Assembly (NCBI GenBank): GCA_002069605.1
Contig: MWBQ01000218.1
Coordinates: 1-56,938, forward strand
Direction: 5' to 3'
DNA: 56,938 nt
Source: Candidatus Atribacteria bacterium ADurb.Bin276
GTDB taxonomy: Bacteria; Atribacterota; Atribacteria; Atribacterales; Atribacteraceae
The translations under genes and the position numbers were made by a program. Below the pieces are notes generated by a model. That model had not been told where the DNA came from and did not search any database. It saw only the letters and a program-made list of their open reading frames with translations. This document shows, one piece after another, positions 51,814 through 56,938 of this stretch; position 1 is the stretch's first letter; each line of letters begins with the position of its first letter.

Positions 51814-53326
51814 TTAAATGCCCCCCTCCTATTGCCAGTTTTAAAACTTCTTCTTGGTTCGCATTTTGGCGGGTTAAAGTCCCAGTGACCTTCCCTTCTT
51901 TCATAACCAATACCTGATCGCTCATCCCTAAAATTTCTGGTAATTCTGAAGAAACCATCAAGATTGCAGCCCCTCGTTCAATAAGTTTGTTCATTAAGTG
52001 ATAAATTTCAATCTTAGCTCCAACATCAATACCCCGGGTTGGTTCATCAAATAGGTAAATATCGCATTCCCGAGCAAACCATTTACCCAATACCACTTTT
52101 TGTTGATTCCCCCCGGAAAGAAACATGGTTTTTTGATGAAAGGAAGGAGTTTTAATATTCATCATTTGTACCATTTCAGAAGTGATATGATTGAGCTTCG
52201 TATCATCAATAAAACCGCGATTGGATATCTTGGTTAAAGAAGGCAATCCAATGTTATCCGTGACCGATAATAACAATACCAAACCTTGGGTTTTTCTTTC
52301 TTCAGGAAGAAGTGCAATACCCAAATTAATGGCATCATAGGGAGACTGAATGTTAACTTCATCTCCTTTCACAAAAATCTTTCCACCATCTAAAGGATCT
52401 AAGCCATATATGGCACGCAAGAGTTCAGTCCGGCCCGAACCAACCATTCCAGCAATTCCTACGATTTGTCCTTTTTTGAGGGAAAAATTAATATTGTGCA
52501 ACACTCCTTTTCGTTTTAAATTCTCTACTCGTAAAACCTCATCCTTAGCCTGATGATCCATATGGGGGAATTGTTCAACTAACTTCCGGCCCACCATCAT
52601 TTTTATCAAATCATCAATCGTTAACGTAGCAGTATTATTGGTTGCAACATGCTTTCCATCTCTTAAAACTGTCACTCGATCGGAGATAGCAAATATTTCG
52701 TCGAGATGGTGGGAAATATAAATTATGGTTACTCCCTTCGATTTCAGGAACTTGATAATGCGAAATAGTGTTTCAATTTCTTTTTTAGCCAATGCTGCCG
52801 TTGGCTCATCCATTATTAATATTTGAGCGTTGAGAGAAAGTGCTTTTGCAATCTCAACCACCTGTTTTTTAGCCACACCTAAAGTTCCAACTTTAGCATC
52901 AATCTCAACATCCACTTCAAGAAAATCAATGAGCTTTTGGGCTTCTTCTCTCATCTTTTTCCAATCAATAAATCCTCGCTCGTTGCGAATGTGGTGACCC
53001 ATAAAGATGTTCTCAGCGACCGTCAAGGCAGGTATTAAATTCAATTCTTGATAAATAGCTGCAATTCCATTTCGAAGTGCTTCATGAGGATTTTGGTAAT
53101 CAATTAGTTTCCCCTGAAAAAGAATACTTCCGGATGTTTTTTGGTAAACACCGGTAACAATTTTTATTAAAGTTGACTTCCCCGCCCCATTTTCTCCAAC
53201 TAAAGCATGAACTTCTCCCTTTAATACATCGAAACTAACACTGTCAAGAGCCAATACACCTGGAAAGCGTTTAGTTACATTTTCAAACTGTAAAATACTG
53301 TCGCCATTATTGATTGTCTTATCCAT
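51797..53326 (-). CDS. Sugar ABC transporter ATPase (RbsA type, double NBD)
   Basis: A 509-residue protein with two nucleotide-binding domains. First: Walker A GENGAGKST near residue 47, LGVAKKQVVEIAKAL signature, Walker B ILIMDEPTAAL. Second: GMVGSGRTE near 295, LSGGNQQKVVLGKWF near 404 and YLFDEPTRGIDVGA. First gene of the RbsA-RbsC-RbsB set; GGAGAAAG before the ATG. Confidence 0.95.
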   Translation of the reverse strand: MDKTINNGDSILQFENVTKRFPGVLALDSVSFDVLKGEVHALVGENGAGKSTLIKIVTGVYQKTSGSILFQGKLIDYQNPHEALRNGIAAIYQELNLIPALTVAENIFMGHHIRNERGFIDWKKMREEAQKLIDFLEVDVEIDAKVGTLGVAKKQVVEIAKALSLNAQILIMDEPTAALAKKEIETLFRIIKFLKSKGVTIIYISHHLDEIFAISDRVTVLRDGKHVATNNTATLTIDDLIKMMVGRKLVEQFPHMDHQAKDEVLRVENLKRKGVLHNINFSLKKGQIVGIAGMVGSGRTELLRAIYGLDPLDGGKIFVKGDEVNIQSPYDAINLGIALLPEERKTQGLVLLLSVTDNIGLPSLTKISNRGFIDDTKLNHITSEMVQMMNIKTPSFHQKTMFLSGGNQQKVVLGKWFARECDIYLFDEPTRGIDVGAKIEIYHLMNKLIERGAAILMVSSELPEILGMSDQVLVMKEGKVTGTLTRQNANQEEVLKLAIGGGHLNGRSD

Positions 53327-53359
53327 ATTCTTTCTCCACTATAAATACTCCTTTAAGTT

Positions 53360-53377
53360 TTTGAAATCGTTTTCAAA
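53360..53377. promoter_or_regulatory. LacI-type operator in RbsABC leader
   Basis: TTTGAAATCGTTTTCAAA, a CG-centred palindrome with one mismatch, about 22-40 bases after the likely start site. Shares the half site TGAAATCG with the operators at 45500 and 45721. Confidence 0.7.
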
Positions 53378-53405
53378 GTAAAATCAAAAAAATATTCTTT
53401 TTACT

Positions 53406-53434
53406 ATTCTATATTCTCTTCTTATTTTTATCAA
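53406..53434 (-). promoter_or_regulatory. Promoter of the RbsABC-type operon
   Basis: Minus strand TTGATA (53429-53434), 17-base spacer, TAGAAT (53406-53411). Lies about 80 bases upstream of the ATPase start, with a LacI-type operator downstream. Confidence 0.6.
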
Positions 53435-53507
53435 TTTCATTTTGACTTTTACTTTCAAATAAAATAAATTGGATTGTTTCTCAAATTTTTATCATCTTTT
53501 TCAGTTC

Positions 53508-53536
53508 TTGACAAGGCTTATGAAATACGCTATTTT
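53508..53536 (+). promoter_or_regulatory. Promoter of the tRNA pair
   Basis: Consensus TTGACA (53508-53513), 17-base spacer and TATTTT (53531-53536), ending 14 bases before the first tRNA. Confidence 0.65.
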
Positions 53537-53550
53537 ATATTTTGCCCTTC

Positions 53551-53639
53551 GCCGAAGTGGCGGAACTTGGCAGACGCGCTGGATTCAGGTTCCAGTGAGT
53601 TTAACGCTCGTGGGGGTTCAAATCCCCCCTTCGGCACCA
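53551..53639 (+). tRNA. tRNA-Leu (anticodon CAG)
   Basis: Class II tRNA. Acceptor GCCGAAG pairs with CTTCGGC, the anticodon loop TTCAGGT holds CAG inside a CTGGA/TCCAG stem, a long variable arm follows, and the T arm is GGGGGTTCAAATCCCCC. The 3' ACCA is encoded. Confidence 0.96.
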
Positions 53640-53642
53640 GAT

Positions 53643-53717
53643 GCGCGATTAACTCAGCGGTAGAGTGCCATCCTCACACGGTGGAAGTCGCTGGTTCGAA
53701 CCCAGCATCGCGCACCA
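53643..53717 (+). tRNA. tRNA-Val (anticodon CAC)
   Basis: Acceptor GCGCGAT pairs with ATCGCGC, discriminator A and encoded CCA. Anticodon loop CTCACAC in a CCATC/GGTGG stem; T arm CTGGTTCGAACCCAG. Three bases separate it from tRNA-Leu, so the two are co-transcribed. A T8 run follows the CCA. Confidence 0.96.
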
Positions 53718-53888
53718 TTTTTTTTAAAGTAAAATCCTCGGTTTGATTTATTTTAAAATAAGTCTTTTCTTTCAATTAACTTATTTGTTGCCGGCCATTC
53801 AGTTCAATTTCTAAAAATTAAGAAGTTATTGGATAATTTTACATTCGTTTGAATTATCATTAGTCTTATTTCCTAATATACCTTTAAG

Positions 53889-54269
53889 ATGGAATTCAGG
53901 ATGAAAAAAAATAGAAGCGATTTGGAAATTCAAATAAGCTCGACTCTTGTCCAGTTTGAAAAAGAATACATGGGAAGAGGTCCGGTTGATATAAAGACCT
54001 ATCTTTTTGATGATATCGTTTTTATACGTTTGAAAGGTGTGCTCACCAAAGCTGAAACACAATTAGCTTCGGGCGGGAGTAAGGACAACCGCGATTTAAT
54101 AAAACGGGTCCGCATTGAGCTTTTAGAAAAAGGGAGACCACTTTTGGAAGCTATTATTGAAAATATCCTGAATCGAAAAGTAGTGAGCTTACATACCGAT
54201 ATTAGCACCCGTACTGGTGAGCGGTTGATAATCTTTACCTTAAATGAACCACTGAATGATCTGTTTTAA
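53889..54269 (+). CDS. DUF2294 (MpsC-like) protein
   Basis: A 126-residue protein matching DUF2294: LVQFEKEYMGRGPVDIKTYLFDDIVFIRLKGVLTKAE in the middle and VSLHTDISTRTGERLIIFTL at the C-terminus. The family has been linked to membrane-potential or bicarbonate-related transport in Firmicutes, but function is not settled. The ribosome binding site is weak; either 53889 or the ATG at 53901 could be used. Confidence 0.8.
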   Translation: MEFRMKKNRSDLEIQISSTLVQFEKEYMGRGPVDIKTYLFDDIVFIRLKGVLTKAETQLASGGSKDNRDLIKRVRIELLEKGRPLLEAIIENILNRKVVSLHTDISTRTGERLIIFTLNEPLNDLF

Positions 54270-54415
54270 AATTAACTTGGTGAATTTATATCTCCTCCTG
54301 TAAATCCCCACAACCTGAGTCTAATTTTTTACCAATTCAACTTTTCCCTTTTTCAAGAAAATTAAAAATATTAATTTTTGCACCTCCTCGTTATTTTCCT
54401 TTTTTTTCATAAACA
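54270..54415. other. Gap before the leader promoter
   Basis: AT-rich sequence after the DUF2294 gene with no gene or clear hairpin seen; it ends at the TTGACA box at 54416. Confidence 0.5.
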
Positions 54416-54444
54416 TTGACAGTCATTATCAGAATGAGTAAAAT
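54416..54444 (+). promoter_or_regulatory. Consensus promoter of the structured leader
   Basis: TTGACA (54416-54421), 17-base spacer, TAAAAT (54439-54444). Predicted start near 54451. Confidence 0.75.
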
Positions 54445-54450
54445 AACCAC

Positions 54451-54535
54451 TTAAATCGGTGGAACATTAAGAGTATTGGTGTTTCACATAAAGAATGATA
54501 CAGCCGGAAGCCAAAGAGTATTAATGACGATTTGG
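54451..54535 (+). promoter_or_regulatory. Candidate riboswitch/attenuator leader
   Basis: About 85 nt between promoter and terminator. The 5' end AAATCG (54453-54458) can pair with CGATTT (54528-54533), a P1-like closing stem. CCAAA (54511-54515) can instead pair with TTTGG (54531-54535), and CAGCC (54501-54505) with GGCTG in the terminator 5' arm (54540-54544), giving alternative folds. A motif AAGAGTATT occurs twice. I do not recognise a known riboswitch class. Confidence 0.5.
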
Positions 54536-54582
54536 AAAGGGCTGGGGTTAAGCTATAACTCCAGTCCTTTTTTATTTTAAAA
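54536..54582 (+). terminator. Strong intrinsic terminator ahead of the P-loop gene
   Basis: 15-base stem (AAAGGGCTGGGGTTA with TAACTCCAGTCCTTT, G-U pairs allowed), 5-base loop and T-rich tail. It lies inside the leader, 15 bases before the ATG of the next gene, so read-through must be controlled. Confidence 0.85.
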
Positions 54583-54596
54583 AAAGGAGCAGTAAA

Positions 54597-56366
54597 ATGA
54601 AAAGCTTCACCCTTAGGAAGAAAGAAGTGATCATCCATACTGAAGGAGAAATTTGTGGAAACATCCAAGAATTAACTAATAGCCCGATTTTCGAAAGAAT
54701 AGTTCACGCCTTCATGGACCATCTAAAAAAGCACAATTCCTTGTTGAGTGATTCTTTGTTTCCTCCAGAAGCTGAGCTTTCCTATCGTTCAAAAATACTA
54801 TCCCTACTGCGTATTTTAACTACATCATCTCTCGAAGAGGTGGTTAAAATACTTCCTGATTATAGTTACTTTTTAGATAAGAAAAATTTACTCCATGAAT
54901 TTGTGGAAAAGCTCTATAATTTCTGGCGACGCTATGAAAGATATATGATTTGTCATTCTGAATCGGGAATCTATTCCCATGACCAAAAGCCATATCGAAC
55001 TTTTAACATGACAGTTGAACGTCTTTCCCACTTAGTTCGTGCTGGATATCGTGATATATGTGAGAACATCACTGGTACTCATCCACGAGTTTATCGTCAA
55101 GTTGACGCCGGCTGCCAAGCCGGAATTATTGCGGTCCCAAAAATTTGGAATCCTCCTTCCGAAGAATACAGGGAACTCCTTTCGATCCCTTTTATTCGGC
55201 AACTAATGATACAACCTCCCTTGCTCCTCGATCCCCCAATGAATAAGCGAACCGGGCATTTCCAAAAAGTTACTCAAAACCTGTTATCCAATATTATGAT
55301 CGATGAAAAAAAATGGCTTTGTTACCCGGCTCAAGTTGGGAAATTGGTTATCTTTATCTATTTTGAAGAAGGTTTTATGGGTTTGGGTTGCTCTTTGGCC
55401 AATCTTTTTGAACTAGCCGATGACGACCAAATCAAAGAAGGACCAGATGCCATTTACCTATACGGGGTTGATCCTGCAATGTTCCCTACTGATATCAATT
55501 CTGAAACAGTCTTTTTTGATGATGAACCGAATCAGATTCTGATCGGCTTCGTTCCTGGAAATGACCAATACGGGTATTTTGGCTATCTTAAAAAGATGGT
55601 TCTTACCCTCCATAATGTTGTCATGATGAAAAAAGGAATCTTGCCTTTCCATGGTGCGGCTTTCCGTATCACCAATTTGGATAAATCGGTCTTTACAATT
55701 GCTATTATTGGAGATACGGCTACGGGTAAATCAGAAACCCTGGAAGCTCTCCGAATCATGGGTAATGGATATATTGCTGATCTAAAAATTATTGCTGATG
55801 ATATGGGATCATTTGAGATTGACGAAACAAATCATCAAATTCTTTGTTATGGGACCGAGATTGGTGCCTTTGTTCGACTTGATGACTTAGAAAAAGGCTA
55901 TGCGTTTGAGCAAATTGATCGGGCTATCATCATGAGTCCTCAAAAAACCAACGCCCGAGTTATTTTACCAGTAACAACTGTAGATTGTATTTTAAAGGGA
56001 TTCCCAATCGATTATATTTTCTATGCGAATAACCACGAAGAAATTGATGAGTTTCATCCAGTTATAGAACGCTTTCCAGACATTGAAAAAGCTTTGGAAG
56101 TATTCCAGGAAGGGAAGGCAATGTCAAAAGGAACCACCACTTCAGTAGGAATTGTGAATTCTTATTTCGCAAATATTTTTGGGCCTATACAATATTTTGA
56201 TCTCCATGAAAAAATTGCCCAACGTTATTTTTCTGAATTTTTTAAAGCCAATATCTTCATCGGCCAAATTCGAACCCGATTAGGAATTCCCGGTCAAGAA
56301 ATGAATGGACCTCAAACCGCTTCCACTGCTCTTATTGAATTAGTTGGTTTAAAAAGTAAGAAATAA
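54597..56366 (+). CDS. PEP carboxykinase-like P-loop protein, unknown
   Basis: A 589-residue protein. Residues 1-330 show no familiar motif. Residues 345-560 resemble the PEPCK/HPr-kinase P-loop fold: HGAAFRI near 350, Walker A GDTATGKSE near 372, an IADDMG segment near 400 (compare IGDDE of PEPCK) and later KAMSKGTTTSVG. Typical PEPCK residues are only partly kept, so activity is uncertain; a nucleotide-dependent kinase or carboxykinase is possible. AAAGGAGC lies just before the ATG, directly after the terminator, so expression appears to depend on antitermination. Confidence 0.7.
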   Translation: MKSFTLRKKEVIIHTEGEICGNIQELTNSPIFERIVHAFMDHLKKHNSLLSDSLFPPEAELSYRSKILSLLRILTTSSLEEVVKILPDYSYFLDKKNLLHEFVEKLYNFWRRYERYMICHSESGIYSHDQKPYRTFNMTVERLSHLVRAGYRDICENITGTHPRVYRQVDAGCQAGIIAVPKIWNPPSEEYRELLSIPFIRQLMIQPPLLLDPPMNKRTGHFQKVTQNLLSNIMIDEKKWLCYPAQVGKLVIFIYFEEGFMGLGCSLANLFELADDDQIKEGPDAIYLYGVDPAMFPTDINSETVFFDDEPNQILIGFVPGNDQYGYFGYLKKMVLTLHNVVMMKKGILPFHGAAFRITNLDKSVFTIAIIGDTATGKSETLEALRIMGNGYIADLKIIADDMGSFEIDETNHQILCYGTEIGAFVRLDDLEKGYAFEQIDRAIIMSPQKTNARVILPVTTVDCILKGFPIDYIFYANNHEEIDEFHPVIERFPDIEKALEVFQEGKAMSKGTTTSVGIVNSYFANIFGPIQYFDLHEKIAQRYFSEFFKANIFIGQIRTRLGIPGQEMNGPQTASTALIELVGLKSKK

Positions 56367-56377
56367 ATTAAGAGAAA

Positions 56378-56638
56378 TTATTCGGTTTTGATGTATAAAA
56401 ACTCAAAAACATTGGGTGAAATTTTTTTAGGATTGGTAGTTTGAACAGTCGGATTAAAACGTGCAACTGGCTGAGGTTTATCGGTTTGGTTTAAGAATTG
56501 TAGGCGTTCGGCTAATGATTCTTTGAGAAGAACTTTTATTTCTTCTATAGTTTTTGATCGAACCTCGACTTCAACAATATCAGGGAAAAAAGCCCAAAAT
56601 CCATTCTCTCTTTTTTCTACCACCGCCCAATATCCCAT
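56378..56638 (-). CDS. HicB-like protein without HicA
   Basis: An 86-residue protein with the HicB N-terminal fold: YWAVVEKRENGFWAFFPDI, then VEVRSKTIEEIKVLLKESLAERLQFL. A short C-terminal extension replaces the usual DNA-binding domain. No HicA toxin gene was seen on either side. GGAGGGG before the ATG. May be a solitary antitoxin-like protein. Confidence 0.75.
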   Translation of the reverse strand: MGYWAVVEKRENGFWAFFPDIVEVEVRSKTIEEIKVLLKESLAERLQFLNQTDKPQPVARFNPTVQTTNPKKISPNVFEFLYIKTE

Positions 56639-56881
56639 TTTTCATCCCCTCCAATAAATAAAAAAGGTAACTTTTACCAATGAAATTTTTCCACTGGTTA
56701 ATGATAGATCACTTTCCTGGTAAATTCATGGTTCTATTTATTATACAAAAATTTAATCTTGGTAATGAAGCTCCTTTAATTTTTGGTATCAATAGCTTAC
56801 ATTTATTCCCTAATTCTTTTATATTTAATGGTACAATAATTAAAAAATGTCCTTGATGCGGCTAAAGGAGGTTGCTTTACA

Positions 56882-56938
56882 ATGTTCAAATTTGGTGTTG
56901 ATACCTTTATCTGGAGTGAAGCTTTCTCAGAAAAAGAC
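56882..56938 (+). CDS. Sugar phosphate isomerase/epimerase, 5' fragment
   Basis: Only the first 19 codons are in the window (MFKFGVDTFIWSEAFSEKD). This opening matches the xylose-isomerase-like TIM-barrel family (for example tagatose 3-epimerase types). AAAGGAGG lies 11 bases ahead. Confidence 0.6.
   Translation, partial: MFKFGVDTFIWSEAFSEKD

Follow-up and report, generated by a model that had tools for sequence, protein, structure and literature searches.

A conserved leader as a candidate transcription attenuator of a PEPCK-like gene in one genus of Atribacterota

Introduction

Does the short structured region between a promoter and a PEPCK-like gene in Atribacterota control the gene that follows it, or does it serve some other end? 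The region lies in a 56,938-nt stretch of DNA (the window, meaning the whole stretch that was analysed) from a 2.5-Mb Atribacterota genome. An earlier note, made from the letters alone, had proposed an attenuator at this place, and a conserved leader, mutually exclusive pairings in three genomes and the absence of another strong promoter for the gene point the same way. We consider it probable (roughly 0.6) that the leader is a cis-acting, genus-restricted transcription attenuator of the PEPCK-like gene. Our literature search returned no description of this leader and no cis-regulatory RNA described in the phylum Atribacterota. The leader would offer an attenuator open to experiment in a phylum of which few members, among them Atribacter laminatus RT761 (PMC7736352), are in culture. 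Identifying its signal would open a route to the role of the PEPCK-like protein.

Layout of the locus

All elements of the unit lie on the forward strand. A sigma-70-type promoter, TTGACA-17-TAAAAT (54416–54444), agrees with the consensus at 11 of 12 positions, and its hexamers and spacing are kept in the related genomes G004 and G003 as well as in G007, which belongs to another genus. It is followed by a leader of about 84 nt and then by an intrinsic terminator (54535–54577) with a 16-bp stem (54535–54550 with 54556–54571), a 5-nt loop and a U-tract, which is kept in G004 and G003. The sequence continues with a Shine-Dalgarno motif AGGAG (54585–54589) and the ATG at 54597 of the predicted regulated gene (54597–56366), whose open reading frame, weak PEPCK_ATP profile match and fold matches indicate a 589-aa PEPCK-like P-loop protein. 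The promoter, ribosome binding site and start codon are as the earlier note had described them, and so is the terminator except for its stem, which had been counted as 15 bp. The layout expected of an attenuator, namely promoter, leader and intrinsic terminator 5′ of the start codon, is therefore present.

A scan of positions 53000–56938 found no terminator-like site besides 54535–54577. No further strong promoter for the PEPCK-like gene was seen, and there is no space for one 3′ of the terminator. A weak promoter-like match found by eye within the terminator, TTGGAA-16-TATAAC (54532–54559), could in principle serve as a start for transcription of the gene in the window, but G004 and G003 do not keep the spacing of this match. 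The presumed start site of the leader is surrounded by CCAC-TTAAATCG-GTGG (54447–54462), and in G003 this CCAC-N8-GTGG is replaced by CTAC-N8-GTAG, a change from C-G to T-A in which both arms remain matched. It could be a DNA operator, a candidate with arms of merely 4 bp.

Alternative structures of the leader

In the minimum free energy (MFE) fold the two ends of the leader pair as P1, in which UAAAUCG (54452–54458) is joined to CGAUUUG (54528–54534). The core pairing AAATCG with CGATTT (54453–54458 with 54528–54533), already pointed out in the earlier note, is present and is extended to 7 bp by a flanking U-G pair; the 5′ strand is invariant in the three genomes that carry the leader. Next to it stands the hairpin P2 (54459–54487; 54459–54470 with 54476–54487), which folds in all three. 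The competing state consists of CAGCC (54501–54505), which as the antiterminator 5′ strand captures GGCUG (54540–54544) in the 5′ arm of the terminator, and of an invariant inner hairpin (54511–54535) in which CCAAA (54511–54515) pairs with TTTGG (54531–54535). The inner hairpin uses the 3′ strand of P1, as seen in both MFE and prefix folding, and is thus mutually exclusive with P1.

Folding of growing transcripts, which computes equilibrium states and is a mere proxy for kinetics, gave an identical order of states in the three genomes. P1 and P2 are present until the 5′ arm of the terminator appears; P2 then stands together with the antiterminator, CAGCC:GGCUG around CCAAA:UUUGG; once the 3′ arm is out, the terminator forms and P1 is restored. 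The two alternative pairings that had been suggested earlier therefore make up the MFE state before the 3′ arm of the terminator exists. Energies in the window are −30.5 kcal/mol for the antiterminator state and −42.1 kcal/mol for the state with the completed terminator. The latter is favoured by about 12 kcal/mol, so that any switch would have to be kinetic or assisted.

Could these pairings have arisen by chance around a constitutive terminator, which would damp the leader promoter and end read-through from the upstream gene mpsC with no regulation at all? In favour of this, it is the sole terminator-like site from mpsC to the gene, and the antiterminator is just moderately above shuffles: its gain was equalled by 13 of 600 column shuffles, which do not preserve dinucleotides, so that it beats about 98% of them, and in single genomes P ranged from 0.01 to 0.08. 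On the other hand the consensus fold of the alignment reached −17.3 kcal/mol, where the column shuffles averaged −7.5 ± 2.5 kcal/mol and none of the 600 equalled it, and conservation of the whole leader far exceeds that of its flanks, as described below. We regard a constitutive terminator as decidedly unlikely. Compared with dinucleotide shuffles, the whole element including the terminator has a fold z-score of −5.5, and the leader without the terminator has −2.2, −1.9 and −2.4 in the three genomes.

Conservation and covariation

Between the window and G004 the leader is 92% identical and the terminator 85%, while the upstream intergenic DNA reaches 60% and third codon positions 69%; the difference between the leader and the flanking intergenic DNA is significant (Fisher P ~2e-7). 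The pair G004 and G003 shows the reverse, with 77% identity in the leader against 90% in its flanks and mostly 90–96% in the neighbourhood, the leader being more divergent than coding DNA as well. The differences between these two leaders fall in P2, in the loops and in P3, and P1, CCAAA:UUUGG and CAGCC:GGCUG are all retained. A mutually exclusive antiterminator is thus conserved across homologues, in three genomes of one genus, and CAGCC:GGCUG appears once with a U-G pair.

The comparison of related genomes that had been recommended earlier thus revealed conservation upstream of orthologues, but the covariation is thin. P2 shows one compensatory change from G-C to A-U, three one-sided changes with pairing kept and one lost pair. 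Hardly any changes fall in P1, the antiterminator or the inner hairpin, which are therefore uninformative on covariation, and covariation measures were no higher than in shuffles, where three sequences of one genus could hardly allow more. A further candidate stem, P3 (GAUAC:GUAUU), was rejected as it is not conserved and is broken in G003.

Distribution among genomes

The leader is found upstream of the orthologous gene in three genomes of one genus, namely the genome of the window, G004 and G003, and in no other of 50 genomes of the phylum. Of the 25 genomes of the order, 12 carry an orthologue of the gene itself, fragments included; in G002 the contig begins within the gene and so does not contain the leader region. 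Two covariance models, one built on the entire element and the other on just the leader, gave no convincing extra copy in the 50 phylum and 25 order genomes, and the weak matches among those printed aligned chiefly through the terminator hairpin. DNA, pattern and both covariance-model searches identified no paralogous copy in the window's own genome or in the phylum, the phage, plasmid and viral collections held no match to the leader, and a scan of genome contigs added no further species. By eye, the distant orthologues in G016, G017 and G024 have no such leader.

In G007, mpsC is followed by a promoter TTGACA/TAGAAT (10 of 12, 17-nt spacer) and the gene begins about 40 nt further on, with neither leader nor terminator between them. 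Because this homologous promoter sits directly on the gene, the promoter in the window is taken to belong to the PEPCK-like gene. Leader and terminator would accordingly represent a device inserted into, or lost from, the 5′ UTR of the gene. The leaderless orthologue of G007 (L006 1501–3264) apparently begins at a TTG after AAGGA, and has ATC at the position of the ATG.

The same comparison bears on the idea of a free-standing small RNA of about 122 nt, made of promoter, structured body and terminator, that would act in trans and leave the gene to live on leaky read-through. Such a unit would be self-contained, and the strong conservation would suit it; yet its U-tract stops about 8 nt short of the gene's Shine-Dalgarno motif, in G007 the homologous promoter immediately precedes the gene, and the conserved antiterminator pairing would be purposeless in a plain sRNA. 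We think an sRNA unlikely.

A model for attenuation

The computed pairings and their conservation suggest how an attenuator of this kind would be transcribed and would switch in response to a signal. RNA polymerase would start about 7–9 nt past the −10 box, and P2 and P1 would form. As the 5′ arm of the terminator emerges, the leader could rearrange, and capture of GGCUG by CAGCC and of UUUGG by CCAAA would permit read-through; in the alternative state, P1 and the terminator would stop transcription at about 54572–54577. A signal stabilising either state would then set the expression of the PEPCK-like gene.

Translation of a short leader ORF could also block the terminator. The candidate is MTIW(K/R)GLGL, an ORF that extends across the 5′ arm of the terminator and has an ATG and nine codons in all three genomes, with AAAGAG upstream. 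Ribosome-mediated attenuation of this type seems very unlikely, as the ORF is without a run of regulatory codons, the overlapping pairings conserve the region anyway, the sole substitution among its first nine codons alters the amino acid, and the end of the ORF differs in the window. A second leader ORF, MIQPEAKEY, was discarded, its ATG being absent in the other two genomes. For the attenuator, an RNA-bound signal (a small molecule or a protein) is likelier than leader-peptide translation.

Comparison with known leaders

The earlier note had matched the leader to no known riboswitch class by eye, and the Rfam search likewise gave no family at gathering score and none that was meaningful at E up to 5. 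In common with terminating riboswitches in general, it has exclusive antiterminator and terminator states, a P1 strand shared with the antiterminator and a gene close by, but it is without a known aptamer and is confined to one genus. The Rfam L20_leader (RF00558), itself a leader with a terminator, gave a weak sub-threshold match of 22.4 bits, far under the gathering score of 58.7 and resting on the terminator hairpin; the gene downstream here does not encode a ribosomal protein. A UAAUGAC near the P1 3′ strand resembles, by eye, the motif of the fluoride riboswitch (crcB), but there was no crcB match at E up to 5 and no loop pseudoknot was seen. It is possible that the leader is a riboswitch; that it combines an aptamer and an expression platform of an undescribed genus-restricted class, with a ligand tied to the substrate of the PEPCK-like protein, appears rather doubtful.

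The PEPCK-like gene and its surroundings

The motifs GDT-x2-GKSET, PFHGA and IIADDMGS are invariant in six orthologues of the gene, five of which gave sub-threshold matches to the PEPCK_ATP profile, and a fold search with a low-confidence model (pLDDT 55) returned PEPCKs as all of its best fifty matches. The fold therefore bears out the name PEPCK-like given earlier, but the genome has a canonical ATP-PEPCK at a separate locus (G000:C85, 721 bits), so that the 589-aa protein is unlikely to be the metabolic PEPCK. The family (54597–56366) is strongly conserved in Atribacterota. Downstream of it, an 86-aa ORF on the minus strand (56378–56638) has no match in Pfam and looks HicB-type-like by eye. 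On the other side, 5′ of the leader, mpsC encodes an MpsC domain protein (53904–54269), and directly upstream of mpsC is a pair of tRNA genes, tRNA-Leu(cag) and tRNA-Val(cac) (53551–53717).
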